Source: Ceratodon purpureus
Lineage: Eukaryota > Streptophyta > Bryopsida > Pseudoditrichales > Ditrichaceae
Assembly: GCA_014871385.1 (NCBI GenBank)
Contig: CM026426.1
Location: 49,897,263-49,961,262, forward strand
DNA: 64,000 nucleotides
Direction of reading: 5' to 3'
The position numbers and the translations under genes were made by a program. Positions 25,029 to 51,116 of the stretch are shown one piece after another (position 1 is the stretch's first letter; the number at the start of each line of letters is the position of its first letter). A model generated the notes under the pieces. The model worked only from the letters and a program-made list of their open reading frames with translations, was not told the DNA's origin and did not search any database.

Positions 25029-25767
25029 AAATTAAATTCCCGGGCCTAAATCACCCTGGGCTTATCGGCATTGCCCCATCCCATGAGCTTCTCAACATCT
25101 GGAACGAGGGTAAGAAGGGGCTTGTAGACAAGAGAGTGGATGCTCTCACTTTGGACAAGCACTTGTACACTTGCCCTCTTGCTCTTCTTCCCAACTCTAC
25201 GGAAGCTCTTTTCGGGAAGGTAAAGTCTTAACCCTTGATATCATGTGTTAGGATCTGCTGTAATGCATAGCTTCAGATGTAAATTGCTTGTAGCAGCGAT
25301 CTGCATTTCAAGGTTTGCTCAGATTCTGGTCTGGATATGGCGGCGATATGTTACGCCGTAAAGAAGGGAAGCAAGGATTGGGAGAGAATCGCAACGGAAG
25401 CATGCCGAACCAATCCCGGGCAAGAGAACGGAGGCAATTGCGACATCAAGAATCTGAGCAGGGGTTGCATGGTATACTTCCCTGTTTTCATTGAAGGAGC
25501 CAACCTTTCCATGGATGATATGCATTTCTCTAAGGGTGATGGCGAGGTCTCCTTCTGTGGTGCCATTGAGATGAGCGGGTTCCTAAAGCTCAAGTATGGC
25601 GCCTTCTCTCCACACCTAAACTTGTTCTGAATTTTCTCTTTGAATCTCTTACCATTATGAGATCAGGTTGAGAATGTGAGCTGATCCAATGACTAGTGTG
25701 TATGTGAATCAGGTGCTCGATCATGCGCAGAGTAATGGAGCAGTGCTTTATTCCCATGGGCCTAGGC
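25029..25767 (+). pseudogene. Formamidase/acetamidase gene, 5' part (three exons), cut by the MULE
   Basis: Formamidase hydrolyses formamide to formate and ammonia. Exon at about 25029-25219: KFPGLNHPGLIG and APSHELLNIWNEG, then donor AAG|GTAAAG. Exon at about 25323-25593: WERIATEACRTNPGQENGG, NCDIKNLSRG and SFCGAIEMSGF, the family's signature block. Third exon from 25713: CSIMRRVMEQCFIPMG, in phase with the previous one, broken at 25767. The rest of this exon (NGNPIFEIGP) resumes at 40242, after the 14.5-kb MULE. No stop or frameshift appears in these three exons, so the gene was probably intact when the MULE entered. N-terminal exons were not found in the window. Confidence 0.85.
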
Positions 25768-25900
25768 GGGGAAAGTTCGTATGTGAGCGAAGAGCGGAGA
25801 GCACAGAATGGAGAGCACAGAATTGACAATTACCCAAATTTTCAAAAGCAAAGTAGACCCTATAACCGTGGAAAATTACTAAAATAAGGCATGAGTTTGT
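25768..25900 (+). repeat. Left terminal inverted repeat of the MULE
   Basis: It starts GGGGAAAGTTCGTATGTGAG. The shared inner words GAGAGCACAGAATGG and ATAACCGTGGA occur in inverted orientation near the right end. Confidence 0.7.
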
Positions 25901-26329
25901 TACTTTTTTTTAGGAAAAGAGTATATTACCGTGGAATTCAGGGTTATCGCTGGTAATAATTTCTTACGTTTGTTTATTGAGGTACAAATTAGGGCTGATG
26001 TCATGATGACGTCATGCATTAAATCCTTTAGATTTTGTCCCTTATTGGATCTAGATACGAGTATTCTAGCATGATGTTCTTAGATAATATAGAGAATTCT
26101 AGGAATAAGAAAACTCGAAACAAACAAAAAGAAATGGTCTTAAAAGTTCATGGAATATTTCAGAGTTCGTGTACAATAATGGAGTAGCTGAAACCAAGAT
26201 GTATACCAAGTCAGACTGCTTGTCTTGGTCGAAGAATTCTCCGTCTTTAGATAAGACCATTCCTACCTTAAGTGTCAAGCAACAATCTATATAAACCTTA
26301 GCAGACGTCCTTGAAGTTGTATTAGCTCA

Positions 26330-26893
26330 ATGATTTCTGTAGAACTTAAGCGTGTACTTGCTAGGGAGTTGTCTGAAGGTATGGGAGATTCATTTGAGGT
26401 CGTTGCTTCTGAAACGATTTTACAGGATTTGCTTAAGCGGATGGCGAATGGGCCTAACCCCTGGGATCATATAGATAGTAGTGCAACGCAGGGTTGGACT
26501 CCTCTGACTGTAATCACGTTTGAAGACGTCGAGAGCGCTCGTGCTCTGTCGAAGAGGTGGAAGCTTGAGATTGTCAGCAGTCCTGAAGACGCATGCCTTC
26601 GGCTAGCGAGGTGGGATTACTTTTCGTACGAGGGTCGCCATTGGAGTCCGAAGGACAAATACGAAGTTAATCGGTTCAACATCAACTAGAGTGTTTTTAT
26701 GAGTTCGTGGAAACTTGCAAATCCAGTTTACAACGAGAGGTTAGAGACAACGTTTCTTGGAGAACTTAGTTGCGTTGAGTTAGATCAGTTGAGGACATTG
26801 CTATTGGCCAATGGGAATCAGGTCTTGGATGTGCCGGAAGGAGAGAAAATTTCTCCAAGAGATGGTATCTGGATCTCTCCCAAGAATAGGTAA
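26330..26893 (+). pseudogene. Small MULE-borne gene of unknown function, one TAG
   Basis: ATG at 26330 and a single frame to TAA 26893 (about 187 codons), broken only by TAG 26687-26689. A possible TATA (CTATATAAAC) lies 40 bp upstream near 26288. The protein is of mixed composition with no signal or membrane segment; short blocks such as WDYFSYEGRHW and GDGIWISPKNR-like endings (DGIWISPKNR) are visible. I recognise no domain. It sits between the left TIR and the 3' end of the methyltransferase-like gene, convergent to it. It may be an accessory protein of the element, like the second proteins of other MULEs. Confidence 0.5.
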
Positions 26894-27175
26894 CATGGCT
26901 ATGGACATGGGTGAGAGTTTGAATGATTAAGAAATAAATTACAGCGCAATATAAATTATGAGCATTTCTTTTGTAACATTTCATTCTTCATGTTATATTT
27001 TGAGCATTATAGTTGTGACATTTCATCCTTTACATACACGGAGACCAATTGGAAATGAGAATCATAACTACTTTAGGGTGTTTGGAGTAGAGTAGACGAA
27101 AGATTATGCAATCAATTCCAATTAAATCGAATCAGATCAGATGAAAACAATGAAAGACTGAAGCCTCCTTAAAAC

Positions 27176-30100
27176 TCAGAACATGCTACAATTGCTACTT
27201 CCACTCTCAGAACTAGATGACTCTGAATCTCCTTCTACAGCCTCTGCATCAACGAATAGAAGGGCCTTGGGATCAAAAGTAGTTGGCCGACTAGGAACAT
27301 ATGTAAGGGCTCCAGATTGAAACGCCTGTGCTAAGCCCTCTGCGTAGTACGGGAGTATAAAAGGCTGAATTGGGCTGGAATGAAGACGCCACGATAGAGT
27401 GGACAGCGCTCTTGGCCCACGTAGCGGTGTTGCCGAAACTACTCTGCAATGGAGAAGCGATTGTAGTTAGATCGAGTACGTAGAGCTGCAAAGAGAAGCA
27501 ATGCTTGGATAATTTGAATAAAGAATAGAAGACTTACACCACTTATCAGGTCTTGCTCTCTGTGGAGGCGCTTCGTCTGTTGCTGCAGACCTAGGATGTT
27601 TAGGAGGGCAGATAGCGGATGGTCTAGCCATGTACGGTTTGAGAATGGCGTTGAATATGGCTTCGTCATCCTCAAAAGCTAGAATGTGATGACCAATAGC
27701 TTGGCAAGCTTGATGGAGGCCCCTGAAACTCGGGGAGTAACAAAGAAATGAGGAATCGTGGAAAAAATGAGAGGAATAATTCAACAGAGATATGTATGAA
27801 TAGTTACCTGTCCCTGCATTCCAGTCGAGGACTATGTCGCCGGGCTTAGAAAGCTCTCCAATTATGCTCTGCATCATCTCATGGGTTTTATCCCTTGGTC
27901 CTCTCCACGGAACGTCCCCATTCATTTGTTGCGACTCCGCATCGGTCCAGTTGAAAATGGCATCACTCTCCGTAATGTTGAGGACCCCATGTATCAACTG
28001 GGATTTCTTCGTCTGGAAGGAGAAATTATTGCCACTACGAACGTAGACGCGAATCCAGAACCGCATAGTCTGCAGTCAAGCAAAAGTAGTGAGTAAAATT
28101 AAGTGGAAGGGTTATCAATAAGTAAAGAGAAGGAAATGTTTAGGGAAAATTACCAAGTTCTCGGGGTTCGTAGGAGAAGTCAGGCCGAGTACATTGACGC
28201 CCCACCAGTCCTTGAAAAGCACGAAGTCATTACCCTTAGCTTCTTCCTTGATATCCTTAGCCAGCTTCTGATCACTGTTGTAGATGAGGCAGAGGGCACC
28301 ATCTTTCTGCAGGTATTGATCTGCAAAATGGAAGATGTCGTACACATAATCCTTGTAGCGAGAGTTCCAAGGCGGAATACTCGTGGGGGGATTGGAAACG
28401 GAAGGGACGGGAAGATTCTCAGGGATGTCGGCAATGATCAAGTCGACTCCCAGATGGTCCTCTTGTTTGCATCTGTCCGGAACTCTGTTTTGGCGGCCTG
28501 CTCCAAACTTGAGGAAACAAGAAAGCAGAGTTAGAAACTATAAAACGAGTAGAGGTGGATGTATCCAAGAAATGTCAAAATATCGGAACATACCTTGCGA
28601 ATGAAGTCTTGAGTCTTGATCCAATCTGGGTCGACGCCACCTTTTCTCTCCAGTCTCTTATTTCGCCGCAACATGGAATCCACAGATGAGTTGAAGACAG
28701 AAACATGTCTGGAAATCGAAGCTCCAGCCGAAGAAGTTGTTTGAGGATATAGTTTGGCCTTCCTTTGCTCAATGAGACTTCGTGTGATCGCAGAAGCACT
28801 AATGGATGAAGGCGCATTCGCTGTGGTTGACATTGGCATTGGGATGTCTATAGTTGGAGAAGCGTTGGGTGTCTCCTTCCCTGGTGAGGAAGACTCAGCC
28901 CCAGTATCTTGTGAGGTCTGGGACTTCGAACCCAGAGTTCGCGGTCGCCGAGCTCTCCCTCTCTTTGGTTGAGGTGCAGATGATTGGCTCTGATGTTCTT
29001 TGTCATCTTCAGAAGCTTCATTGGAGTCTTCAACGACCGACGCTCGAATATCAAGTAATGATTTGACATCGGCCTTAGAATCAACTGTAAAACCACGGAG
29101 GCAATCTAGATACCAACATCCTGCCTCCAAGTGGGGAGCTTTGTACCTCTTCAATTGCTGAGGAGAGTAGATACACTGGTCCGAGCCTCTCTGGATCCAT
29201 GAAATAAAGTACTTCGGGAGTTGTTGGACAGTGATGGCGCCTTTTGGAAGAAGCTCTATCTTGAAGTACCTAGTGTGGGCTAATTTTGAATGACTTAGTA
29301 TGTGGGAGAGAGGAACGGCAGGATTTGAAATGCACTTATGTTTGAGTAAAGAATCATACCGGTAAGTGACTCGCTTGACAACATCTTCCGTTCCAAGGAA
29401 TTTCGTGAAAATAGTCTTCTTATCAAAAGTCTTCTTAGCCTTGGATCCAAGGAATGCCAGGAATGCTCTGTCCCAAAGGAGAGTATGCCAACTCTCCACG
29501 TAATCGCCTGGTCGCTGAACATCAGGGGAGGCATTCCAATTGATGTCCAGCTCCTTAGCCTTACACATGTCCTCGAACTCTTGGATGACCCCTTCTTCCA
29601 ACTACAAGAGACAGTCAGCAGAATTAGACTACGACAATTAAAGTGGTAGAATGACAACGACATTTTCAGTTCTGGAAATAAGGGAGCATACCCCTGCCCA
29701 TAATGAAGCCCTGTTTAGCCAACGGTCGAGGTCAGCTTCCTTGAACTCCGGTGGTGGGAACCTATAAGATTGCCTTGAAGTCGGAGAGGAGTTCCACCAC
29801 CTCAACCAACGAGCTTTGTACTAGGGTTCCACTGCCGCCGGCACAATCTTCTGCAGCTTGTCCAATGTCATCTCAGGTTTGTTGACATCGCTGAAGTGGC
29901 GGTTAATCTGCAATTAGAACTGAACAGTTAGCATTATGTAATTAGAAGTACATAGGAGATGGGAACAAATCAGCTTAAGAAGAAGTGATTAAGGATACAC
30001 CTCAGCAAGGAAGTCGTCACCAATTTTGGGATTCGCAATAGCCAAGTACTTGGTGATGTCCTTCTTCTTGACAGCATCGATAAAGTTGTTTGATGCAGTC

Positions 30101-33100
30101 GTCATTGCATCCCAAACTCCAGATCCAGATTGATCATGTTTTGGCGTGTTCTCCATGTATGCTCTAGCTCCCTGATCCGAGGCGACGACAATCTCCCTCT
30201 GTACAACGAGAATGTGTTAAATTCAATGTACAAACTACTTGAAATGCATTAGTTAAAGTAAGGATCAGAACGAATGTAGCAGCTGAGTCATGGAATAAAT
30301 TCTTACTCGGTATAGGAAAGCAATGAAAACCTTCGTTGTCAAAGTGAACCATCGGTCCTTTGCGTGTTTGTTCTGCACACAGATTTCAAACTCTTCTGGG
30401 CTTAGGAGATCTTTGAATTCTTCTAACTTCATGACACCGAAAGAGCGGATGCGGAATAACTTCGCTGGAAGATTACTCTTCACATGGTCATTCTCAGTAG
30501 ACCTGTGGACAAAAGAAACTGTTTAGAAAACACTTCATAATAGAAGGATGACCCGAAATCAAATTTGAGAAATTGTACAACCAAAATTCTTACTAGTTGA
30601 TGTCGTGCATGGCATAGAGAAGATTGCCCACTTGGCCGCGGGGGTCCAAAATGATGCAATGCACGGAGATGTGCCAAGCTGGGTCGTCGGCATGATGCTT
30701 GTTGATGTGTCGTAACCGAGCTGAAAGGCGATGGTTACCTTCCCATACAAAAAACATTTTGCCACTGAAGTGATTGAGGTCATCGTCTCCTTCGAGGTCG
30801 GCTTCGAAGGCTTCGTTAGCTCTGCGCCAGCATAGACTCCACTTTGCCTTCACTTCCTCCGTGACATCCATTGACATCTCTTTAGTGTTGAACATGGAAA
30901 TGTACATCACGCGGTCCCTATCTCTGTAACCCTTCACGAACTCCCTCTCCAGATGTTGCACGCCCATTTCGCCAACCGGTCTCACTTTTGCCATTGCGAC
31001 CATTTTACACAATGGGACAAGCAGGCGAGACTTCCTCAAGGGCTGAATACGAACGCCATTGATGACGTTGATCGAGTCAACTTTATGCTGTGTTCGATGA
31101 AGCAATTCTCCTTGTATAGCGTCTTTCAAATCCAAAGGCTTTGATGATGATGGCAACACGTCCTCTGTTTGAGTAAACTCAAGTACCTGCCATCAGCCAT
31201 AGAAAAGAACAATCAAACTCAACAATGCAGATACTTAATAATGGAATTTACCAGTCACTTAGAGATTTTCTCATAAATGAAAGAGTAGGAAAAAAACATC
31301 TCAAATTTCATCTATGGCACCAAGCATCAAGGCTGTGCCACTCTACAAGGAGCCCTTCCATAGTACCGTCTAGCCTCTCTACTATTCCAATGATGGCGCC
31401 TCCTCCAGAACCGCCTGGTTTGACGGCAAGCGCTGGGCAGTATTGCCGGAAGGGCAAACACTACATGGGCTGGCCTCCTCAACACCAAAGGTGAAGCTGG
31501 AGGATTTGGCGAAGACGGCGGTGTACCAAGACGTGGCCAGGTGGGCATGTACACCAGAGAGGTGGGCTCATAAACAGGCGACGTAGGCATGTACTGGGGT
31601 GACTGGACGTCGAAAGGTCCAGTATCTACACCTAAAGGAATGGCTAAATCACAGGTACAAAGACGCTCATCCTCTGGGTCTGACAGGTCTGAAAGGTTGA
31701 TCACAGAGATTGGAGCATTGACAGACATGTCGAGAGCATCAGAGTCTACCTAGAAGTACAAGGCATTTGAGGAAGTTAGAGTTTTCAAATCATTTGAAAG
31801 AACTATCAAATGCTCAACTTGAATTATTTAGGATAATAAGAACATGTGTATCCAAAAAATGAAAACATCAGTAACTATACCTCAGTCTCCTCAGGTCCCT
31901 TGCTTTAACTCTCGGTCTCCATGTTCTGCTGCGAAGTATCCTGTAATTCATAAAAAATGCACTAATGTCAATTAATAAAAACATTCTCTCCCCTACTGAT
32001 CGGTTCTCATGTATAGAGAAAATCCATGCACGGAAGATTATACATTTTCACACCTTAATACAAACAGAACAACCTCTGCTAAGTAGAATAAACAAAAGAA
32101 ACAAAATGCATTCAAAATATAACTTAATTCAGAGATAGGTAATAATATGAGAGGGATAGGGAGAGGGAGCGGCACAGGGGTAGGGAGAAGGACAGGGACA
32201 GGGAGAGTGAGGGAGAGAGGGAGGGGCAGAGACAGGGAGAGTGAGGGCAAAAGAGAGAAGCAGGGACAGGGAGAGTAAGAGAGAGATAGAGGAGCAGAGA
32301 CAGGGAGTGACCGCGAGAGAGAGGGACAGGGAGTGGGAGCGGGACAGGGAGAAATACAGGGGGAGGGAACGGCACAAGGAAAGGGAGACGGAGAGGGACT
32401 GGGAGAGAGACGAGAGGGGACAAGGAGAGTGAGGGAGAGATAGAGAAGCAAGGACAGGGAGTGAACGAGAAGGAGAGGCAAATAAACAGGGAGAGAGAAA
32501 ATTAAACGATTAAAAAATCATTGAAACAAAATTAAAAAAATTAGAAGGGTCGATCGAATTGAATTTTTTTTTTTAAAAAAATACCATATTGCCTTATCGG
32601 AGGCTTACGCCTCCTCGGCTCAGATAATGAAGAGGGGATTTTTTGCCTTAGCAACTCCCTGCCCAGCCTGCATCTCTCCAAGCCTCAGCAGAGGCCGGGG
32701 ATAAAGCCTCCGCGGCACTGGTGTCTGCTCCGAAAGCAGACACCAGGCCGGTTTGATCCAATTGACTTTTAAAAAAAAAAATACCATATTGCCTCATCGG
32801 AGGCTTACGCCTCCTTGGCTCAAATAATGAAGAGGGGATTGTTTGCCTTAGCAGCTCCCTGCCCAGCCTGCATCTCTCCAAGCCTCAAGCAGAGGCCGGT
32901 GGAAAAGCCTCCGAGGCTCTCATAAGTGACCAAGACTCCGTTTCCCCCTACTCCGCATCAACCCCAAATTCCCAACAAGCCCCATCACTCCCGTCAATCC
33001 GAATTCCCGACAACAAACCCAAACACGCAATTCGCCCCAACACACCCGAGTACCATTAAGTCCCAATCCCCAACATTCGAGTCTAAATCCTCAATACCCA

Positions 33101-34289
33101 ACACAATCCCCAACACCCAACACAATCCCCAAGCCAAGCTGCGAATCTCCAAGCTCGTATAAACCTCATCAAACCGAAAGTTGAAGTACCCATCAAGCCC
33201 ATGAAATCGAAAGCTCACCAAACCCATCAAACCGAAAGCTCAAGCACAAGCAGCGAAATCCCTCAACAATCTACCGACATTCTCCCTTCAAGCTCCCAAC
33301 AACCTCCCAACAACTCGTTATAGCTCTCCTACCTCGTCGTCGTCATCGTCGAGCAGGTCCTCGAGCTCGCCGTCGACCTGGTCCCCGTGCTGGACTTCGA
33401 GCTGGTCCGCGAGCTCACCTTCTCCATCGACGGCACCGACCTGCGCTCCAGGGGCTATCTGCACATCATCCTCTTGGCCACGGCCTCCCACATTCTCCTC
33501 TCTCTGCGCAGCCATAGCTCTCCCTCCTTCTCCTGCGTCTAAGATTCCTTGCCTTGCTCGCCTCGCTTCTACTCGAAGATGCTCTAGTTCAATGCACTCT
33601 CCAACAGTAGAGAGCCTTGGTTGATCCCCGACCCCTCTCATCCACTTGGTGCTTTGTATAAAAATAGCTTACATTTGAATCCATGATTCACCTGTGTCAA
33701 GTGTCGTAGCCCCTCTCATTGAGACTTAGAGCGAACCTCACACTCTTCAATCAAACTATTCAATGAATAACGTTTCACAAATATAGTCTATTATACATAA
33801 AATTCACAATAGCGTGGTTCTAGACGGATTAGAAATATTTACCTTATCGGAGTTTAAATACAGATCTGATTGAGAATCAGGCTCCCCTGTCAAAAACTCA
33901 TTGAATGTAATCGAAGGTTGCGGAGACTCTACTTTTTGACTACAATTAAAGACTAATTCTTCCGTCATGGCCTCATCTGCACCACCACTTAAGAATACCT
34001 CCTGTTCCTGCTCGTGATTCTAGACGACTGTGTTCTCTAAAAACTCTTCCTTCTCCTCTACTATGGAGTCCAGAATGAGTTTACGAAGGCTAGAGAACTT
34101 CAAAGCTACAGGCAGACCTCCTCCTCTTCTTTTCACGGGTGCACTCAAATGGTCACCTTTAAAATTTACCTTCTTACGTGATGCTCTCCTCTTTCTGGCT
34201 CTTCTATTCGTAAAATCAGTGCGGCCAGGTTTCCTTCTCCGTTTAGGAGTAACATAAGTGGAGGGAGATGGCCCTCCACTCTGCTTCAT
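27176..34289 (-). CDS. Multi-exon protein with ParB-like domain and beta-class methyltransferase-like domain, carried by the MULE
   Basis: Exons I can place on minus: 34289-33843, 31940-31881, 31749-(end unclear), 31186-30594, 30502-30307, 30198-30001, 29907-29692, 29601-28594, 28507-28154, 28063-27808, 27722-27538 and 27443-27176 (TGA), with GT..AG borders. A basic N-terminus leads to a ParB-like region (exons 31186-30307): AKVRPVGEMGVQHLEREF, then VWEGNHRLSA and VHCIILDPRGQ. A Ser-rich linker follows (28.7-29.1 kb). The last exons carry LIIADIPENLP (motif IV position), FKDWWGVNVLGL, SKPGDIVLDWNAGTG (motif I) and ILAFEDDEA (motif II), in the IV-before-I order of beta-class N4/N6 methyltransferases. 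The DPPY catalytic tetrad is DIPE here. TAG occurs at 34020, 29821 and across the 30594/30502 junction, TAA in exon 2, and the 27808/27722 junction is off by one base. Target and activity are unknown. Confidence 0.62.
32150..32915. repeat. Purine-rich simple repeat and 200-bp-spaced direct repeat in an intron
   Basis: About 32150-32500 is a GGGACAGGGAGAGTGAG-type purine run; the Ser/Leu/Pro frames read on its other strand are artefacts. About 130 bp starting ATACCATATTGCC at 32581 recurs at 32781 with few changes, each copy containing an inverted GGAGGCTTACGCCTCC word. Both lie in the large second intron of the methyltransferase-like gene. Confidence 0.8.
33318..33641 (-). other. Isolated acidic frame in the large intron
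   Basis: A 107-codon frame, Glu/Asp/Gly/Val rich and ending DDDDDEVGEL, lies between exons 1 and 2 of the methyltransferase-like gene and is more GC-rich than its surroundings. It may be an unplaced exon or a small insertion. I recognise nothing in it. Confidence 0.3.
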
Positions 34290-34828
34290 GTGTCTAACCA
34301 CAGGAGTGACTCTCTAGCAAAAAGACTCTCTGTAGAACTGCCTCTTAGCTTAAATACCTATAACGTGCAACTATTTTGATAAACCCTAAGTTGATATATA
34401 TATTTTAAACCGCTTACATATTTACTACCTTCTTCACATTAAGATTACCAATAACCTCTCTATAATTGAAGTTAGGTTTAAAATATCAACCTTTAATTAT
34501 AAAGAAAAATCTAAGCATACTATATATTAAAAGATTTGAATCAAGCACTTCAATGCATGCTCCTTTTTATATTCATTGTTTTAAATGTAGATTTAAAATG
34601 ACGGCTTATAATCTTATAATACATCATAACAAATAGAATTTGCTCCATGAATCAAATTACTAAAGGAGAGTGATATAAATCTTACCTTGTAAACTTAGAC
34701 CTGCAAAAAGTTGCACTCTAATTAGTTAGCGCCGTCTCTCTTAAATCATACATTCGTTACGTAACAGAATGAATCATTACCTAGTCGTCCACATGGACAT
34801 TCCAACTTGAATAAAATGATCAACAGCG
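34290..34828. promoter_or_regulatory. Divergent promoter region of the MULE
   Basis: About 540 bp of AT-rich DNA separate the starts of the minus-strand methyltransferase-like gene and the plus-strand transposase. Both genes must be controlled from here. I could not pick single TATA boxes with confidence. Confidence 0.5.
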
Positions 34829-37800
34829 ATGCATCGTTCCTCTCACTTTGCTTTCGCGTACACTCACTCTTCTCCACTTTCCGCTAGTACGATTGAGTTG
34901 CCTGCGAACATGGGGATGGTCTGTCTGTATGCCCAAGGCATGGAAATCCCTCTTAGGTTTCGCGTAGATGACGATGGTCTAGCTACGGTGTCATCTCTTC
35001 GCCTGAGTCTCAGATTCCATTTCCGTGAGGATACCATCAGTATAGAGGAGGAGATCTTTGATGACGTTACTGCCGAGGTTACCTACACCCTCGGGCAACT
35101 TTCCATGAGAGATGAGAACAACATGTTGCAGTGGAGACTTTTCCCTGGATCCTATAGAGTCTATGGTCTTACTGATTCTCTGATGGCTGCATTCACTGAG
35201 ATCCTCACCCCCCGTCGCTCTTCTACTTGCACAATTCAGACTCCCTTACCTCGTGATGTCAAGGTCAAAGTCGAGCCTGGTATCGAGACTTCAGATGTAG
35301 AGAAACCTCCTCCGAGCGTCATATCTCTCTCTTCTGATGACGAAGTCAGTCCCGTGAAGTTGGTGCCTAAGGTCCACGCTAATGCTCCTCCTTCCAATGT
35401 CTCTCCTCCATTGTCCCAAGTCACAGTTAGCATTGTTCTCCATCTTAAAGAGATTGCTAAGACGCGTGGGTCAAAAAACATTTTGAAGAAGATAGACTAT
35501 TCCACTATTAGACACGAGAGAGTTGAGTACTTGCCTGCGAAGTTTGATGGTCCGGTTCTTTTTGAGTTGCCCCTAGCTGCTGGAGGATCCTCTAAGCTCG
35601 CCGCCAAGTTAATGCAGGGAATGGACAAACGATACGACGGACACTTGTGGACCAAGACCATCACAACAAACATCAAAAACGACTTTGGACTGTCTTTTCG
35701 AAGTTCCACCTGTGTCGGATGGCTGCGCTGCAGCAACAAAGAGTGTGAGTTCCTGAAGCCTGTTCCGAAGATCTTCGAGGTTAACGAGACCGAGTTTGAA
35801 GGGTGTACCCTCCAAGCTTTTCTTAAGGATCGGCCTCGTCCATCTGATTCCACGCTAGTGTGCAAGGTATGTAAAGAACCTCCATCATGTGTAGCTACAT
35901 GCGAGAACAAGATTTATTACGTAGTGGGCAAAGCAAAACAGACTAGAGCTTGTATTCACATAAGAACACATGATCATTAAGTGAAAGTTGGAGACTACAG
36001 AGACTCTAAAGCAGAGATTAGTAGCTTAATAGAAGAGCAGGTAGAGATGAACAACAAAGCAATGAAGAGCGCCGTTGTCTTGGAGGCGAGCAAACTCCTC
36101 ATCAGGAGCTACCTGCTACAGCCCGAGGATGCACCACCGAGGAAGCTGACAATGGAGGAGCTCATTCTTGTTCTTGATCGATGCAAAGACATGGCATCAC
36201 CAAACATCCGCAACAAAGTCGCTACCTTCAAAAGATACAGTAGATACGGAATCATGGACAGTATCACCAAGCTCCGTGGAAACAGTCTCTGGGCGTACGT
36301 CCAGGAGAATACGTTTCCTGGTCAGGGAGCTATGCGTGACAAAGTCTTCGTCTTCAAGATGTCGGAGGTCGGGCCGGGAAGTGGTGTCGACTTGGTCAGC
36401 CGAATGCAAGCTGGTGGAGATTTGGAGATCGCATGGATCATGTTCGACCATATAAAACGCGTCAAAGATTGGTCGACGATGGCGTGCCATGTGTACGACG
36501 CCCCCTATTGCCGCGTGATGACAATCGCGAGTTGCGACATGCAGTCCGAGGACACGGAGGCCCGGCTCGTCTTCTAGAAAAACTTGAACCTGGTTATGGA
36601 GAAAAATGGCGTTGCAGCGCCAAACTTCAAGGGGTTCATGGCGGATAACGCACAGGCAAATTGGAATGAAGTGCAAATCCTATACGGCAATGGCAACAAA
36701 GAGAGCCAATGGAGGACCGTGAGAGGTCGTGCTTGTTCCACTGGACACAGAACATGGTGGCGTATACGCAGAAGCACTTCCCCAAAGAACTCTGGGAACA
36801 GCACAAGAAGATGTGTACTCATTACAAGAATGCGACCAGCATCGCAGAGGCGGAAACTCTATACCACGCGTTGCGAGCATGGTGGGCATCCACCAGGGTC
36901 GTTCGCGAGAGCGGACTCATCACATTGGATTAGTGGCTGTCATTCCGGCACCACCGCTTCCGCCAGTGGGGGGGATTCATGACCACGGTATGATTTGTGC
37001 ACTCTGTTTTGCTGTTTTTGATACTAGTTTCCTAGCCCTAACCTACAAAACTCTAATCAGTGAATCTAACGGCACCTACTGTCTAAAGTGCAGAAATTCA
37101 CGGATGAAGAACTTACAGAGATGCCGACCTGTAACCTCGCCGAAATAGTTCATAACAAGTGGCTTCAAGCTTCAGGAAACAACAGGAACGACCTCTACGT
37201 TGCTACCGTGGACGATTTTGTTCAGGCTTTTCTACAAGTTGTCCACTACTACCAGTTCCTCAATAGTGACGTCGGCGGAACAGGACCATCGAAGAAGGAA
37301 CTGAGGCTCCGGATGGCGGAACGCAACGCGAAGAAATGGAGAAATCCTACACTGCTCGAAGACCCCATGCTCGATATGCCAGACGCGGATGAATTCTGCA
37401 CCCGTCAGCCTATCATGCCAAGAGCGGAAGTGTTTGGTTCACAGAAGCAAAAAGCCGACGTCCCCATCGGAGCTGGAAAGGAGTCTCATCGCCCGGACAA
37501 GACAAACTTTTCACGCCCAAGAGGCCCAAGACGTGACGTCAGGGCTCGCCCTATGCAGATGCCTGTCATTGTGGAAGACGACTCCGAACACGACCCCGAG
37601 GTAGAAGGTACCCAATCTCCTGCCTAGGTAGTTGATTCCCCTTTACCTTCACCTGTGAACAAGGGCGGCATTGCCAGGTCAACGCGGTTGAAGAAACTAA
37701 GGTCGACGTGAAGGAGTGGCACATTTTGAGACTTCACAAACTTTCTACGAAGTGCTGCTGGGCCCAAAGAGTTGAAACGAAAAAGAAGTGCACTGAGAGA

Positions 37801-38586
37801 ATTGTCAGGGGGCCCCATTGCACAGCTGCACCGACCTACACTGGGCTTTGCACTAACTACTGCAGGAACACAGTCGAGAAGACAGAGTTCTTCTTCTGCT
37901 CCGATGATATTGAGCGCTGCGTGAAAGGCTCTAAGCGGAAGTGGGTAGCACACTACTCAAAGGACCAGGAATTCCCCTCCATTCCAGAGGTGTGGCCAGT
38001 GAAACTTGGTACTAACCTAAAACTCACTGAGATTCTTGCCCTCGAAGCAGCGGGCTTTCAACTTCCGCCGAAGAAACCGGTCTCCCCAAGACGCCTGTTC
38101 TCTTCTGCCCCGCCCCCTGCAAATCTCAGCTCGGTGCCAGTCCCTGCAGACGCTGGCCGCTAACCAGTCAAGAGAGACGGCAAGATGGTGAAGCGCACTG
38201 CCACTCGTCCCAATCCGGCGCAACGACTCTCCATAGGCTCCTCCGAGTCTCTCAAAGCGCGCCTCCGTTCCGTCACCATGATACCTGAGCCGGGCCACGG
38301 TTGCATCATTGGGCTGGACTCGGACGTCGCTCCATAGATCACACGGTAGCAGATTACCATCAGTTCTTACCCTGGTTGCACTTGCCCAGCATTCAAGAAG
38401 ACGATGACTACGTTCCGTGGCAAGACTCAGTTCACATATTGTAAGCACCTTTACTACATATTCTTGAAGGTCTGCAACCGTGATCCCGAAGCCGAGCTTT
38501 TCATCCATGCGCCTACCTTCAGCTTCAACGAGGTCAAGCTACTCTTAGAGAGTGGAATCTTGCGTCACTCCTTGGCGAAGAAGTAG
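34829..38586 (+). pseudogene. Mutator-like transposase with SWIM zinc finger
   Basis: ATG at 34829. A beta-rich N-terminal part and a Ser/Pro linker lead to a MULE DNA-binding-like block (GHLWTKTITTNIKNDFGL, CIHIRTHDH). TAA at 35978 interrupts the frame, which then continues to 36577 (TAG where Trp is expected in RLVF_KNL). The DDE catalytic core shows IMFDHIK and FMADNAQANWNE; after a frameshift near 36700, CLFHWTQNMVAY and RAWWAS, with TAG 36931 (Gln). An intron is likely at about 36990-37087. The next exon has NLAEIVHNKWLQASG, carrying the third acidic residue. After 37627 (TAG) and a frame change, a Cys-rich segment follows, then after TAA 38161, TAG 38336 and TAG 38348 the SWIM finger GCTCPAF...YCKHLYYIF (CxC..CxH), ending at TAG 38586. 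SWIM fingers are typical of MuDR-type transposases. Strong family call; broken copy. Confidence 0.85.
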
Positions 38587-38837
38587 GTAGCCCTCCTACT
38601 TTAGAACTGCCATTTCCACAATGGCCATTTGTCACGGAGTGAATGATTTTAGTAATATACCATGTACTAAGTCCGCAACACGAAAGCTATATTGACTTTT
38701 TCATTATAAAGGCTTTGTCGTTCTCATTGATTGCATTCTATTTCAATACATTCTATCTTGAACAAGTGCACTATGTACCTCGTATCCCCTGACATGTACC
38801 CTTTCTTACAGCAAACATATACTTGTTATTAGATGTC

Positions 38838-39290
38838 TCACTCTTCGAACCTAACACGTTTAGGGTTGCCCACTACTCTATCAGCAGGACTGCCAGCCTC
38901 TGACTGTACTACAAGACAAACTACATTCGCGTTCACTTTCGTTCCCACACTTGGCAATTGTCCTTGGTATGAATGTTTCAGCAATGGCCCACCTCTCCGC
39001 CTCTGATTCACTAATTCCCTGGAATAGGTTCCCCTTGGGATCTTTCCAACCTTGGAGTATGCATGAGGTTGCAAAGGCACATCTGCGTCCCCCTCCAGCA
39101 CTATGATATAATCCAAATTTTCTGAACGTGGAGGGTCAGCTCTTACATCCGGTTGTACGTCAACATCCGTTGTCAAAGGACGCCCTTGGCTGTTGGCCAT
39201 CACCTCTTCTTCGTCCTCCACCTCAATATATGGTTGAAATGGACAAACATCGTCAGCAAGCGAAACAACAATATCTCTGACGTCTTCCAT
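38838..39290 (-). CDS. Small MULE-borne gene, unknown function
   Basis: A 150-codon frame from ATG 39290 to 38838, ending NPKRVRFEE, with no internal stop. Early residues are acidic (YIEVEDEEEVM); the later half is basic (REL VNQRRRGG region). No domain recognised and no membrane segment. It lies between the 3' end of the transposase and the right TIR, transcribed towards the transposase. Confidence 0.42.
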   Translation of the reverse strand: MEDVRDIVVSLADDVCPFQPYIEVEDEEEVMANSQGRPLTTDVDVQPDVRADPPRSENLDYIIVLEGDADVPLQPHAYSKVGKIPRGTYSRELVNQRRRGGPLLKHSYQGQLPSVGTKVNANVVCLVVQSEAGSPADRVVGNPKRVRFEE

Positions 39291-39490
39291 AGCCGCTGTC
39301 CCGCACTACGGAAAAGAGCTTCACAAAACACCAACACAAAAGAGGAAGAGACATTCCATAATCTTATCTTAAATATCCCTGAAGAATATGCTTGGCGGCC
39401 TTGAAAATCGGCTTTTCATTTATTTAAAAGTTGTCATCCTCCTAAAGTGAATGGAAAAGGATGAGGGTTGAGCAGAAGTCATTTAGCATT

Positions 39491-39491
39491 T

Positions 39492-39538
<47 letters not shown>

Positions 39539-39605
39539 ATAAAAGAAAAAAAAAAAAAAAAAAAAAAACATTTATAAAAAATGAAATTAAAAAAAAAAAA
39601 ATGAA
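39491..39605. repeat. Poly(A) tracts
   Basis: Long runs of A (about 39500-39536 and 39545-39568, then shorter ones) near the right end of the MULE, followed by 200 bp of A-rich DNA. They could be low-complexity DNA or the tail of a small retroelement; no body was recognised. Confidence 0.8.
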
Positions 39606-40049
39606 GAAAAGCAAAAATAAATGTTAAAGTTGAAAATAATATGAAGGAGATTAAGAAAATGAAAGAGAAAATTAAATGAAAGAGAATTATATGAAAGGAC
39701 TCTTTTGACCCCTTTAACAAGATAGATAGAATAAAGGAAGTTAATAAAAAATACAAGACAATTATAAAAAATAAAAAAAATAAAGAAAATTGAAAGGCAT
39801 GTAGACTATGGCGGATGAATTCTAGCAATGTTAAGAAAATGTTACGATATTAAATGTTACTTGATCCTTGTTCAGAGCTTCAATACCAATACATTTTAAG
39901 TAGTAATTTGCATATAAATGTGAGGGGATAAGGGGAATTAATGTATGCCTGAACTAGTTAGAAGGAGCTAGAGCATAGGAATTGGTGCATGTCAAAAAAT
40001 TAATCACCAAGAAAAGAGAAAACGAACTACAAATTCATTGAAAATACTG

Positions 40050-40232
40050 TAATTAGTCCACGGTTATAAGGTCAATTAAATTGCTAAAATAAGTAACTTT
40101 CCAAAAATATATGGAGAATATTCTTCTAATTTTAAATTATGTTTTTAGTATTAAAAAGTGCTATTTTTAGGTTCCGTCCCCCATTCTGTGCTCTCCGCTC
40201 TCCGCTCTCCGCTCACGTACAAGCTACGTCCA
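40050..40232 (-). repeat. Right terminal inverted repeat of the MULE
   Basis: Read inward from 40232: TGGACGTAGCTTGTACGTGA, then two extra GCGGAGA steps, then GAGAGCACAGAATGG. The GCGGAGA unit is present in more copies than at the left end. Confidence 0.7.
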
Positions 40233-40500
40233 GGCCTAGGCAAGCTCAATGGGAACCCCATCTTCGAGATCGGCCCCGCTTCTCCGAGTGGTTGGTGTTT
40301 GATGGCATCGAGATCGGCCCCGCTTCGTCGAGTGGTTGGTGTTTGATGGCATCGAGATGGGCCCCCTGGAGCCACGCTTCTCCGAGTGGTTGTTGTTTAC
40401 CTTCTCCTCCTTTGTTGCCCATGTGAGGGTCGCATTTCTGGCATTGTGGATGTGCCCAATACTTGTGCGACTCTTGCAATTCGTGTTTCCATCTTTGACC
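40233..40500 (+). pseudogene. Formamidase gene, 3' part, with a triplicated 44-bp block and an internal deletion
   Basis: After the right 9-bp duplication the frame resumes exactly where the left half stopped: GLGKLNGNPIFEIGP. Then a 44-bp exon segment occurs three times (listed separately), breaking the frame. The third copy runs into FSEWLL. The sequence then jumps to VYLLLLCCPCEGRISG and IVDVPNTCATLAI (about 40394-40490), which in the family lies some 30-40 residues further on. So the gene suffered both a local triplication and a deletion, presumably after it was inactivated by the MULE. Confidence 0.8.
40266..40395 (+). repeat. Three tandem copies of a 44-bp formamidase exon segment
   Basis: Copies start at 40266, 40310 and 40354 with GAGATCGGCCCC (GAGATGGGCCCC in the third). 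Copies 1 and 2 lack the TGGAGCCAC found in copy 3, which alone keeps the family reading EPRFSEW. A 44-bp unit shifts the frame at each copy. Confidence 0.88.
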
Positions 40501-43389: not shown

Positions 43390-46300
43390 CTAGCCACTAG
43401 CTGGTGTAGTCCTGGTGGCTGGCGCAGTGACTCCTCCTGGGGGCAAGTCAGACCCTGCAGATCCAGTTCGTAGTCCTGGTCCTCATCCTCCCTCTGCTGA
43501 AGTACCCACGTTGCTCCGGTCTCCGCTTAGTGGTGATACTGGTCTGGGTCCCCTTTCCGGCAATGAAGAGGCCGCTACTGGTCCCCCAACCTGCTCAAGG
43601 GAGGCTACGAGTTCCTCCACGGTACAATTGACCGCCTCCAGCTCGAGGCGAGAAATTCTATCCGTCCCCTCGGCCTGAACCTGTTCCGCATCGGACCACT
43701 ACCCAAATGAAGGGAATGCATCAAGGGGAGAGCACAATAAAGTGGACCACAAAGTGCAAAATGTGACCACTAACAAGTGAATATGAAGTGTGCTGTTTTT
43801 GAAGGCTCAAAGCTGATTTTGAGGATTTTGGTGTAGTTTTTGAGCATTTTAGTCACTTTCTAAGGTGTCATAAGGTATCTTACACACACCTTCATAAAAA
43901 GAACATCCTGAATTGAAACTAAATTTGACCACTTGTTCTAAATCATGAAAATGAACTTTTCCAAAATCTTGATTTCTTCATTTGGGGCCCTCTTTTGTCT
44001 TTAGGTGATGTTTTTTTCAATTTAAAAAACAATGTTCGGTTAAAAGAAAGTGACAAAAAGTATCGCGGAAAAGACCATCTTAAAAAGCATCCTTGCGATA
44101 CTTTTTGAACCCTAAATCAATCAATGAGTATATGAATTGACTATTTTAGAATACCTTTTAAACATACGGAGGACCCCACGAAATTAAAAGTGATTTCGGA
44201 CAAAACCCTAAACCATTTTGTTCACTTTTCCAAATGAGTCCATTCACTTTGCTTGAGTTCGACGTCCCCGTTTTCCATTGTGAACTCAATGTCCTCTCTC
44301 GCAACTTTGGGAAGTTGAAGAAGATCAAGTCTACTTTCCATATCCCAAACTCAATCTTGCATCGACATAACATAGATTCCACTTTCCCTAGTGTTTACAG
44401 AAGGGGCTGACATTGGTGAAAAGATAAGCACTTTTTTGGTTCACTTTATTGTGCTTCCCCCCATCAGCAAATCGCACCAGATATCTGTTATGTCGCTCCT
44501 GGTCCTCGGTATAGGCTCTGAGCTCTTCACAGACCTGCTTCTTTGTGGTAGACAGTAGGTGTCGTGATAGACACTTGATGGCTAGGGTGGCGCTGGTCTC
44601 CATAACCTCCAGTTGGCGACGAAGTTGTTGATTTTCCAGCGCCAACCTGTCATAATCTTGTAGTCGCGCGTTCGTCTGCAATTACAGATCCAATCTTTAC
44701 CTTCGCCTTTCTTCTACCTGCCCTCCGTGAGCTGCCCATCTCATCCGCTCCTTTTGTTGCTCCTCCGTGAACTCTGTGAGTTTGCGTTGAGTCTTGGCCC
44801 ACGTAGCCTTCAATGCGTCCAACTCCTGTCCCGCTACCTGTAACTCTGTCGTCGTTGCCCTGTTCCTCTCCTCCAGCTCCTGGTTGTGTCTGACGAGGTC
44901 CTTGTAGTTCGGCCTCTGCTCCCACTGCCGAGAGTGTAAATTCTTCTATCTCCCCGTTTCCTCCACCTAGTGCCGCATGTGGTCCATCAGCTGCTCCAAC
45001 CCTGTAGTCACTTCGGATTTCTCTACACCTGCTGCCGAGAATTCGCCTCCAAGGTTCCTCGGGGGTAGAGTTTCCGCCCCTTGAGTTTTCCCACCAGTCT
45101 GCCTCTGGTTGTCCTGGGTCAACTAAAGCCCCTGGTCGCCCTGTGATCCTGCCTCTGGGAGTTCATGTTGGAGATCCTCACCTCCAGTCTGAGACATTCT
45201 CATTGTGAGTAACGTCCTCGAGGCTTCCACTGGTGTCTCACCTATAGCTCGGTCCTGCTTTCTTTTTGGCCTGCCCCGCTTAGCTACCGGTGTCTTCCGG
45301 GGATCAGAAGTGATGGCGCCTCGTTCCACCTCTTCTGCCTCCCTGGGATCGAGAGACCCCGTTATACTGTCCCTGTACTTAGGTTTATGCTCTTGCCGTC
45401 GCAACCGCTTGAAAGTCACCCCTCGGCCAGGTTGGGTAGATGGTGATGACGAGTCCTGCCTCTTCCTCTTTTTCTTGTTGTTCTTCTTTCCTGAAGAAGA
45501 CGAAGATTGGTATTCTGCTCCCTTCGTCTGGTCTGGTCTTCCCCTGGTCAGCCGTCTTGGTCTGGTCCCCTTTGATCCTTCTCCGCTAATCAGGTCTGGT
45601 GGTAAGTCCCCCTTTAGTCTTGCGGATGTCAAGTCGGGCGGGATCTCACTACCGTCATCCACCTCCTCAGACTCCTGGTTTGGCTCTGGGTCAATGTACT
45701 CCTCGTGGTCAGAGTACAAGTTCTTCAACAAGGCGTCTATAAGCTCTGCTCCCTTGATCTCGCGGGTTGGGCTGGTATGGACTCGAATGAACATACGCCG
45801 AAGGGTGGATAAAATCAATGGAACTCAGTTGTGATCGCCCTTCTTCTCGGCCTGGTACATATTCTCGAGCAGCTCGTTGCTGGCGTAGTGGGACTTCTTC
45901 TTGACGCACATGATTTCCACTAGTGCCTTGATCCTGTCCTGGTACACCTCTTCAAACCCGTTGATTCTGGTCCCATCTGAAGTGTGATCTGCGCGGGTTA
46001 GTCCGAACATCCTCATGTACCTCGGGTTGAGCTCCCCACTGGCCTCCGGAATGGCTGCACTCCCTGTTCCCCTCAATCCAGAGAGCTTGCTGGATAGTCC
46101 AAGCAGTGATCTCAATCGGTATCCCTCTGACAGTTGCTCGTATCGGCGTAGTATAGTCCGTCTTCTCTCCCTTAATGTACTGAAATCCCTCCACAAAGTC
46201 CATGACCAATTCTGCCCTTGGCACTGGCCAGGAATATTTGTAAAAAACCCCTAGGCTCACCTTTTCTACCCATACGTCATCCTTTAAATCCTTCCATCCC

Positions 46301-48069: not shown

Positions 48070-49544
48070 TCATGACTGGACACTATCCCCCTTTTGCTCG
48101 TTGACCAGTCCTCTGGTCAAATGTCTTGGTGTCCTGGTTTCCACTACTTCCTTCTCATAAAATCTATATGGTTTTAATTTATTAATGTTAACCAAGACGG
48201 GGTCTAATTCGAATTTTTTACCTGGACCAATAGAGCAGTATTGTTGGGGAGCTTGTACTGGACCCTATAAGGTCCAAACCACCAACTTTTGAATTTCCCC
48301 ACATGCTCCTTGTGGCCCTTGGGATACCAGAGCACATAATCTCCCACTTGAAAATACTTTCGCTTATAGTGTTGCTGGCTCCAAAGTGCCCTGTTCCACT
48401 GCTTGGCCCCTACTGCTTCCTAGGCCTCTAGTCTTGAAGTGTCCATCTGCTCCAAGTCTGCAATCCTTGCTGCCAACACCCTGGTTGGTGTATAATCTAT
48501 CTCCGAGTTGGTCTTCCTGGTCGATACTATGTACTCTGTTGGCATTAACGAATGTAAGCCATAGACCAGTTGAAATGGTGTGTAACCTGTAGTAACCTTG
48601 TAGGCAGTCTTGTAGGAGAGCAGTACAGTATGAAGATGCTCATCCCAATCTGTTCTCCTATCATTGACTAGCTTGCTCAATAGGTGACCAATCACCTTGT
48701 TTGTTGATTCAGCCTGGCCATTACCCTGGGGGTAATAGGTTGTTGATGTACGATGCTGGAGCAGAAAATGCTCCACCAGGTGTTCTATAGCCTCATTTAT
48801 AAAATGAGAACCCTGGTCACTTACAAGTGTGAAAGTACACTCGTATCTTGATAGGATCTGCTCATACAGAGACTTAGCAGTAACTGCTGCTGAATTGGTT
48901 TTGAGCGCCCTTGCCTCCACCCACTTGGTAGCATAATCTGTAGTCACCAGTATGTACCTGTTCCCTGTTGTGGATGCTGTTGGTTTAATGAGCCCGATAA
49001 AGTCCAATCCCCATTTCATAAATGGTTCTGCTGGCATACTGGCCACTAATATAGCTAAACCAGTATTTGCCATGCCCCCTACGCGCTGGCATCTGTCACA
49101 CGCCTTGCAGTATTCTAAAACATCCCGATGTATCGCTGGCCACCAGTATCCGGCGTCCAGTATCTACCTGCTGGTGATATCTTGCGAAAAATGACCACCT
49201 GCTACTCCGTTGTGCATCTCCTTCATCACGACCTATGCCTGCACTGGGTCCAGTACCCTCCTGACCACCAGATCATGTCCTCGCTTGTGCAGAATTCCCT
49301 GGACCATTGTATAGGGCAGTGATTTCATAATCAGCTTTCTCTGCTCCTCCTTGGAAAAGTCCTGTCGTACAACACCAGATTTCAGGTAAGAAAGTACATC
49401 CTCTAACCATTCTGGTTTAACATAAAACAAACTTGCATCCTTGGTCTGGTCCTCAACACTAGTTGCTGGTTCTTCATTGGGCAGTCTTGACATTGCATTT
49501 GCCACTCCATGATTTTTTCCAGGCTTGTACACTACTGTAAAATC
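48070..49544 (-). pseudogene. Integrase with H2C2 finger and GPY-like tail
   Basis: TVVYKPGKNHGVANAMSRLP (49532 on) is the RNase H/integrase linker. An H2C2 finger follows near 49210-49090 (EMHNGVAGGHF...YCKACDRCQ, with TAG between). The catalytic triad lies in 49073-48420: GLDFIGLI (Asp), LVSDQGSHF (Asp) and NGQAESTNK (Glu). TAG at 48420 (EA_EAVG, Gln), then FQVGDYVLWYPKG and WWFGPYRVQ, the GPY/F-like module, ending near TGA 48070. A stop also occurs near 48210. It inserts element DNA into the genome. Confidence 0.85.
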
Positions 49545-50978
49545 CTACTCTTGAAACAGTAGTAGCCATCTTGCTATCCTTCCTGACACCTGCGGCTTAT
49601 TGACCACATACACCAGTGCCATATGGTCAACATAGAAAGCAAATTTATTGCCCATCAAATAATGCCTATACTTGTTCAGAGCATAAACCATTCCTAAGGC
49701 CTCCCTTTCAGTAGTACTATAATTCCTCTCAGCAGAATTCAGCAGTCTACTGGCATAAGAAATGGGCTGGTCACACTTCCCTGTTGGATTCTGGGCCAGC
49801 ATCACTCCTACTGCTATATTCGAAGCATCTGTATGCACATGGAACTCCAGGTCCCATCTCGGTGCAATGAGAATTGGCGCATTCTGGTACTGCTCCTTGA
49901 TTTTCTTCCATGCCTGTTCACACTGGTCTGACCAGATAAACTCCTCGGCCTTCCTCATGAGCCTGGTGATTGGCTCCATGATATGTGCATACGACTTAAT
50001 GTAGCACATGTTAAACTGGGCAAATCCATTAAAAACCTGTACATCACCTGGCTTTTCTGGTCTAGGCATATTCTCCACTGCTTCAATTTTCTTAGGATCA
50101 AGAAATTTCCCTTCCTTAGAAACAATGTGGCCCAGTATAATACCAGAGAAGACCAGGAGTAAACATTTCTCAGGATTTAGACTTATCCCATACTCCCGGC
50201 ATTTCTCAAAACACTTCCTCAGCTTGACCAGATGACTAATAATGTCACTGTACACACTGAAATCATCTAAAAACCATTTCATAAAATCACCAATGAAATC
50301 ACGAAAGGCTTGGTTTACTGCCCTCTGGTATGTTGGAGGTGCATTTTTCAGCCCAAAAGGCATGACTATCCACACAAATGGGCCCCAGTCCGTTACAAAA
50401 GCAGTCTTGTGCTGGTCCATTGGTGCTATTAGAATCTGGTGGTACCCGGAGTACCTATCCAGAAACGAATACATCTCATAAACTGCCACAGAATCCAACA
50501 CTTCCTCAGTAAATGGCAATGGATACGGGTCCTTTTTAGTGGCAGCATTCAATTTACGAAAGTCAATACAAATTCTCAACTTCCCATTCTTCTTAGGAAC
50601 AATGACAATAGGGGATAACTAGGTAGCATCCTCTATTAGTGTAATGAATCCGGACTGAAGCAGTTTATCCAAGTTCTGCTTCACAATACTGGCATAATTT
50701 GGATTCATGCGATATCTGGCCTGATGGGAGGGTGGGATATCCTTCTCCAACTCAATCCTGTGCTGTGCAATTGAGGGTGGGATACCCTTCAGGTCCTTAT
50801 ATGTCCAGGCAAATACATCCTTGAACTCCCTGAACAGAGTCTCTGCTTCAATAGCCTGTTCTGGACTAATGGCTGCATTAATCTTCAGATACTGGGGCTC
50901 CTCCTCTGTTCCAAGGTTAATTTTTCTAAACTGCTCCGACACTGGTAAGGTCCAGGATGCAATCTTCAGTTTCTTCAC
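49545..50978 (-). pseudogene. Reverse transcriptase and RNase H
   Basis: RT: ISPEQAIEAETLFREFKDVFAW linker ends, RYRMNPNYASIVKQNLDKLL, then TAG at 50619 in EDAT_LSPIVIVPKKNG (Trp expected), CIDFRKLN, the catalytic MKWFLDDFSVYS (FLDD) and PFGLKNAPPTYQRA. RNase H: FHVHTDASNIAVGVMLAQ, NYSTTEREAL and KYRHYL. Frame 50579-49545 is otherwise open for 344 codons. After it, TAG at about 49545 (QE_DFTVVYKPG) leads to the linker and integrase. RT copies the RNA into DNA; RNase H removes the template. Confidence 0.88.
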
Positions 50979-51116
50979 TTTCTCCCGGGCTCGTGTCTCA
51001 TCTACCTCAATGTCGCCCTCCTCAAAGTTGTAAAAATGGTCTGGGTAGGGTCGCTCTGAGCCCCCCTCTTGTTCCTGGTCCTGGTCCTGGTTCTTTGCCG
51101 GGCTCTTTATGTCGTC

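Follow-up and report, generated by a model that had tools for sequence, protein, structure and literature searches.

DNA-binding and DNA-modifying proteins encoded by mobile elements take several forms. Bacteria and phages encode ParB-methylases, in which a ParB/Srx-like domain and a DNA methylase are joined in one protein, as in Bce_0392 of Bacillus cereus (sections of PMC5512222) and in the DNA methylase of Mycobacterium phage Vincenzo. Here we describe a gene of the moss Ceratodon purpureus which likewise appears to join a ParB-like part to a methyltransferase-like part. It lies within a Mutator-like (MULE-like) DNA transposon in a 64,000-nucleotide stretch of contig CM026426.1, referred to as the window. 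Unlike the bacterial and phage proteins, the predicted moss protein is eukaryotic, encoded by a spliced gene on a DNA transposon and about 1000 residues long, with a long middle region, a linker and the sequence DIPE in motif IV.

Other transposons offer partial parallels. In the accounts consulted, the VANDAL MULEs of Arabidopsis likewise encode an accessory protein that binds DNA, the anti-silencing protein VANC, which directs hypomethylation of related elements. By analogy VANC appears to be the nearest working precedent, the moss protein being likened to it as a putative accessory protein of a MULE-like element. A second gene is also present in the autonomous maize MULE MuDR, as in the moss element, but to our knowledge this gene, mudrB, has no similarity to ParB or methyltransferase domains, unlike the moss gene. 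An element-encoded DNA methyltransferase fold is likewise found in DIRS elements, which carry an adenine methyltransferase, and in the DNA methyltransferase (DNMT) retrotransposons of Symbiodinium and Klebsormidium, where the DNMT families tested are under purifying selection (PMC5890265). These are retrotransposons, and a ParB-like domain is not mentioned in the Discussion of PMC5890265, whereas the moss gene sits on a DNA transposon and is predicted to encode a beta-class fold with an altered motif IV.

We searched the literature by titles and the beginnings of abstracts, with bioRxiv and most subscription journals outside the coverage, and found no ParB-methyltransferase transposon. The terms 'ParB' and 'methyltransferase' are absent from the main text of a MULE survey (PMC6446971) and of a gene-capture review (PMC13317346). 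Our preferred reading, held tentatively, is that the moss gene would encode a DNA-binding accessory protein with an altered methyltransferase fold which no longer methylates, or does so only in an unusual way, and which aids transposition or resistance to silencing.

Results

Structure of the gene

The gene is a multicopy spliced gene on the minus strand, running from an ATG at 34289 to 27176, and is divergent (head to head) from a transposase gene. An earlier note, made from the sequence alone, had proposed at least 12 exons opposite the transposase. The strand and the splicing were borne out, as GT donors, AG acceptors and one continuing frame join ten exons from 31186 to 27176, in-frame TAGs and one frameshift excepted. 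The count was not: with the support of a second copy of the element, the C2 copy (L033), we could place eleven exons, namely the first exon and these ten. The stretch 33840-31750 differs from copy to copy. VWEGNHRLSA is found in exon 31186-30594, LIIADIPENLP in 28507-28154, KPGDIVLDWNAGTG in 28069-27808 and ILAFEDDEA in 27722-27540 (all minus strand). The exons and their support are as follows.

33843-34289, minus strand: first exon, coding for a basic N-terminus, with a single in-frame TAG here (open in the C2 and C13 copies)
30594-31186, minus strand: ParB/Srx-like exon with the VWEGNHR box (sequence, alignment, predicted structure)
30307-30502, minus strand: middle exon (sequence; C2 copy; multi-copy comparison)
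30001-30198, minus strand: middle exon (same support)
29692-29907, minus strand: middle exon, one in-frame TAG here (same support)
29360-29601, minus strand: middle exon (same support)
28594-29269, minus strand: linker exon, low-complexity and, by eye, probably disordered (sequence; C2 copy)
28154-28507, minus strand: methyltransferase-fold exon, motif IV DIPENLPVP (sequence; relatives; genome copies)
27808-28069, minus strand: methyltransferase-fold exon, motif I DWNAGTG at its end (sequence; relatives; genome copies)
27540-27722, minus strand: methyltransferase-fold exon after motif I, with ILAFEDDEA, frameshifted here (sequence; C2 copy; genome copies)
27176-27443, minus strand: last exon, acidic C-terminus (sequence; C2 copy)

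The window copy is dead, which the earlier note did not notice, because it contains three in-frame TAGs (in the first exon at 34022-34020, at the junction 30594/30502 and in exon 29907-29692) and one frameshift, after 27722. The C2 copy has the same exons, most of them open; its linker exon contains two stops, and AT takes the place of GT at one of its donors. The first exon is open in both copies in which it was read, C2 and C13. Openness was judged exon by exon, over the parts of each copy that were read.

Two observations concern the variable 5' region. An open reading frame at 31749-31327 (minus strand), open in the C2 copy, is a candidate exon; it carries QYMPTSPVYEPTSLVYMPT, which is QYMPTSPVYEPTSPVYMPTSP in the C2 copy, and we take both to resemble the heptads of the RNA polymerase II tail. 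At 32575-32920, within the 5' intron region, there is a pair of direct repeats, each about 146 nt long and 92% alike, and other copies have further repeats there.

The methyltransferase-like end

Profile searches support the assignment of the last exons to a beta-class, N6_N4_Mtase-type methyltransferase fold, in agreement with the earlier note. The window protein, read across the frameshift, matched Pfam N6_N4_Mtase (PF01555) with E 1.9e-7 and 31.7 bits, above the curated cut-off of 26.7 bits. The C2 copy, with no joining of frames, matched with E 9.7e-10 and 39.2 bits and aligned best on the motif-I side. PHROG DNA methyltransferases also matched the window's domain (E 4e-9), and DpnA, CcrM and RsrI, with E 0.001-0.005, are among the relatives of the C2 domain in the PDB. 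The DpnA alignment has a second stretch, insignificant alone at -0.4 bits, which pairs DIPENLPVP with DPPYNISV. DIPE precedes DWNAGTG, so that motif IV lies ahead of motif I, the order of the beta class.

Some other searches gave no match. A PDB profile search with alignments A2 (the motif-IV exon) and A5 retrieved no methyltransferase, A5 being without the part after motif I in three of its five rows. Three of five proteins in the Pfam scan had no match (P0048, P0051 and P0060, all still holding intron readings). A whole-protein homologue search, with a long query and only proteins of similar length considered, returned nothing at E<=10.

The catalytic tetrad of amino-methyltransferases is of the (D/N/S)PP(Y/F/W) type. 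We found DIPENLPVP without change in all 21 sequences read from the moss's own genome, window included, and DIPE in all 14 database relatives that hold the motif-IV exon (of 18 relatives of the methyltransferase exons). Since DIPE replaces the tetrad in all 35 sequences read, we do not file the protein as an active DNA methyltransferase. Motif I is looser; among eight rows, three read FEWNASTG, LDCKAATG and MDWQCGVG. That the DIPE loop is kept more strictly than the cofactor motif points to reading or holding of DNA rather than standard catalysis, and the fold is probably non-catalytic.

A sister family with DQPY or DQPF

A PF01555 search of the moss genome, in which 150 of 773 candidates were scored, gave 32 matches. 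We inspected four and found one DQPY and three DQPF, which define a sister family at these loci.

C8:9595672, C12:14530065, C3:17622469 and C3:19997627 (L084-L087): DQPY or DQPF
L088-L090: same sister family

In each of the three sister loci that were followed further upstream, WDGNHR stands in a related ParB-like exon, and the middle exons are related too. One of these ParB-like exons (L089:4048-5028, minus strand), the only one of the three with such a match when scanned, matched Pfam DndB weakly, with E 0.02, below cut-off. Transposase queries found no match in three 10-kb upstream stretches of this family, so its members may be host genes or belong to another element. This strengthens the earlier note's caution that a protein with DIPE may bind and not methylate: DIPE is fixed in one family, and DQPY or DQPF is kept in the other. 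DPPY itself, which the earlier note proposed to look for among paralogues, was not retained in the 21 genome copies or in the four sampled sister loci.

The ParB-like exon

An exon-sized homologue search retrieved 43 relatives of the ParB exon, the worst with E 8.6e-30; these and the 150 scored matches in the moss genome are far more than chance would give. The GNHR box is invariant in 32 of 32 aligned sequences, and at least 90% conserved in 44 rows that include fragments. The conserved Arg of the ParB/sulfiredoxin G-x-x-R box is therefore present. Sulfiredoxin proper has a catalytic Cys within a G-C-H-R box, and the GNHR box is without this Cys.

An AlphaFold model of the exon built from the 44-sequence alignment reached a pLDDT of 79, against 34 for one built without an alignment. 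The former aligns to ParB, Noc, KorB, PadC, SbnI, free serine kinase and sulfiredoxin and to almost nothing else, with middling Z scores (best 8.3). At rank 5 in BFVD (E 0.015) it matched a protein of Mycobacterium phage Vincenzo named DNA methylase. This supports a ParB/sulfiredoxin-superfamily fold, as modelled, and the ParB-like context earlier proposed for VWEGNHRLSA agrees with the predicted structure. Profile searches did not recover it: no Pfam ParB-type profile matched any of 32 ParB-exon members at E<=10 with HMMER filters on. The ParB alignment was also used to scan viral and prokaryote contigs; of the 19 and 22 pattern matches, respectively, none was confirmed as a locus.

The transposable element

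The gene lies inside an element of about 14.5 kb whose features are listed here.

25768-40232, no strand assigned: whole MULE-like element, about 14.5 kb (homology limits of independent copies; shared termini)
25768-25823, plus strand: terminal inverted repeat, methyltransferase side, pairs with 40183-40232
40183-40232, minus strand: terminal inverted repeat, transposase side, pairs with 25768-25823
25759-25767, plus strand: target-site duplication GGCCTAGGC, first copy, identical over 9 bp to 40233-40241
40233-40241, plus strand: target-site duplication GGCCTAGGC, second copy, exact 9-bp match to 25759-25767
34829-38587, plus strand: transposase gene of two long exons with approximate ends, disrupted in this copy (open reading frames, sequence; sister copies)

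The inverted pair 25760-25823 / 40241-40183 is 76% identical over 66 nt, and the terminal inverted repeats are short, about 50-65 nt. Homology to the C13 copy (L032) ends at 40231 and homology to the C2 copy at 25768. Nearly the same terminal letters, next to unrelated flanks, are found in the C2 copy and in six others, which belong to subfamilies B, C and D. GGCCTAGGC is nearly palindromic and hence ambiguous by itself as a target-site duplication; the C2 copy is flanked by a different 9-10 bp duplication, ATGATTAAG(A). MULEs make target-site duplications of 8-11 bp, and their terminal inverted repeats are commonly hundreds of bp long, with short families of 20-38 or 34 bp also described (PMC6446971, in part). 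The moss element has both a duplication in this range and terminal inverted repeats.

Open transposase frames of about 745 and 497 amino acids are found in sister copies. By eye, here or in those copies, the transposase has the blocks DATY, DNAQANWNAV, CLFHW and a SWIM-like CTCPAF...CKHLYYI. We call the element MULE-like because neither transposase exon matched the Pfam MULE transposase (PF10551) or SWIM profile. When the transposase was compared by hhalign with MULE-matching loci, the DNAQANWNA/CLFH block paired with MULE blocks in two of four comparisons, not significantly. With its inverted termini, 9-bp target duplication and adjoining divergent transposase, the element fits the earlier proposal that a eukaryotic DNA transposon carries the gene.

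Elsewhere in the window, a small stretch at 43725-44461 has inverted ends (GGGGAGAGCACAATAAAG side) with the word GGAGAGCACA in common with the MULE-like termini and is possibly a non-autonomous element. With one mismatch allowed, GGAGAGCACA is no commoner in the window than by chance. Frames at 48420-53758 (minus strand) resemble, by eye, a Ty3/gypsy retrotransposon with integrase, reverse transcriptase and gag.

Copies in the genome

We searched the moss's own genome (362.5 Mb, 151 contigs), in which the window lies on the 110.5-Mb contig C6. The ParB exon has at least 150 matches, scored out of 1878 first-look candidates, and the transposase piece at least 150, scored out of 1974. Among the matches listed, 29 of 150 ParB exons (window included) have a transposase within 15 kb, 27 of these 29 head to head. 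With shuffled positions the mean was 1.9 and the maximum in 1000 shuffles was 7. The C13 and C2 copies also adjoin the transposase yet are not among the 29, so the matches listed understate the linkage. Paralogues do therefore lie beside the same transposase, as the earlier note required of its own idea.

For the methyltransferase exons we fetched 20 loci at the predicted place and added the C2 copy. These exons were present at matching spacing in 20 of the 21; L046 is without them. Over the part of the C13 copy that was fetched, nothing is homologous to the methyltransferase end of the window copy, and counting C13 gives 20 of 22. Among the matches listed, 124 of 150 ParB exons are stop-free, and stop-free ones occur on all 13 large contigs.

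Contig C6 holds 71 of the 150 listed ParB exons and 22 of the 26 that contain stops (Fisher p 2.5e-5). Decayed copies thus gather on what is presumed to be a sex chromosome; C. purpureus has a large U or V chromosome (parts of PMC8000587 and PMC13120521).

Selection and exchange of halves

We compared five exons of the 30 best-scoring copies, window included; L028 is interrupted. Of the 29 copies other than the window's, 25 have no stop over these exons. Mean nonsynonymous divergence (dN) was 0.042 and mean synonymous divergence (dS) 0.150, a ratio of 0.28, and introns differ by 13.5%. By these substitution rates, copies other than the window's are shown to be under purifying selection. Constraint on the motif-IV exon is weaker within subfamilies A and B (dN/dS 0.63), with 0.26-0.50 in deeper comparisons.

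The two parts of the gene appear to differ in their history. When subfamilies A and B are compared, dN of the ParB exon is 0.18 and its dS, at about 2, is near saturation; dS of the middle exons is saturated or nearly so. The corresponding dS is 0.083 for the motif-IV exon and 0.178 for the motif-I exon, against 0.084 and 0.143 within A. In copy D the ParB/middle part resembles that of B (dS 0.18-0.40), but the motif-IV exon is divergent (dS 0.67). The two copies labelled C have the motif-IV exon in common (dS 0.11) but not the ParB exon (dS 2.25). Because the ParB/middle and methyltransferase exons differ in this way, the simplest reading is that the two halves have apparently been exchanged between elements or subfamilies. 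We also considered that divergence of the ParB part tracks the element termini; this was not supported at the one end compared.

Discussion

Our results suggest a protein with a basic tail, a ParB/sulfiredoxin-like domain, a middle region, a flexible linker and a beta-class fold in which xPPx of motif IV has become DIPE. As an accessory protein of the transposon, it would bind the element's own DNA. ParB binds DNA in a nucleotide-dependent manner, and the ParB part may act as such a DNA-binding or clamp module. The methyltransferase fold would serve as a reader of DNA or bases, no longer methylating or doing so only unusually, and the protein may help the element to transpose or to resist silencing, as VANC does for VANDAL MULEs. 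The two roles would fit the gene's position equally.

A more specific form of this idea, possible but doubtful, is that the element has its own ParB-methyltransferase system. A nucleotide-driven clamp would load a reader or unorthodox methyltransferase onto element DNA and mark or unmark it against silencing. New specificities would come from exchange of the ParB/middle half between elements, with the methyltransferase half and termini left in place.

In a rival reading that we judge unlikely, the protein would be an active enzyme, an amino-methyltransferase of the N4-cytosine or N6-adenine type whose motif IV is unorthodox, and would mark element DNA against silencing or regulate transposition. 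The PF01555 score, the retention of the motif-IV Asp and second Pro and of much of motif I, and purifying selection speak in its favour. The sister family, with its related ParB-like and middle exons, is nearer to DPPY, and there is the precedent of DIRS and DNMT-carrying retrotransposons (PMC5890265, in part). Against this, the fourth residue of motif IV is Glu in 35 of 35 sequences, and motif I varies among distant members.

Slightly less probable still is that the protein belongs to the transposition machinery itself, its ParB-like domain nicking DNA, or holding it, while the element is excised and a target captured. Non-specific nicking is reported for the ParB domain of the B. cereus ParB-methylase, and NTPase/DNase activity for other ParB-like domains (sections of PMC5512222). 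Head-to-head pairing with the transposase and strong constraint on the ParB exon between subfamilies are consistent with such a part. However, the transposase has DDE-like blocks by eye and should need no nickase, and the role is here predicted only.

MULEs tend to acquire fragments of host genes (PMC6446971, in part), and the gene could be such a Pack-MULE passenger captured by chance. This is strongly disfavoured by the matching spacing of ParB, middle and methyltransferase exons in 20 of 21 sampled loci, by purifying selection and by stop-free ParB exons on all the large contigs. That both resemblances are due to chance, as the lack of a profile match for the ParB part might suggest, is hardly credible given the C2 match to PF01555, the uniform fold matches of the ParB model and the invariant GNHR.

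The DNA-binding accessory protein that we favour would give a DNA transposon with a ParB-like and beta-class methyltransferase-fold protein, present in at least 150 listed copies, in a moss. The DIPE family on the transposon and the DQPY/DQPF family of related architecture provide a natural comparison within one genome. How transposons counter silencing can be seen from elements that carry proteins for modifying DNA or sensing its modification, and such proteins can become epigenetic tools of the host.

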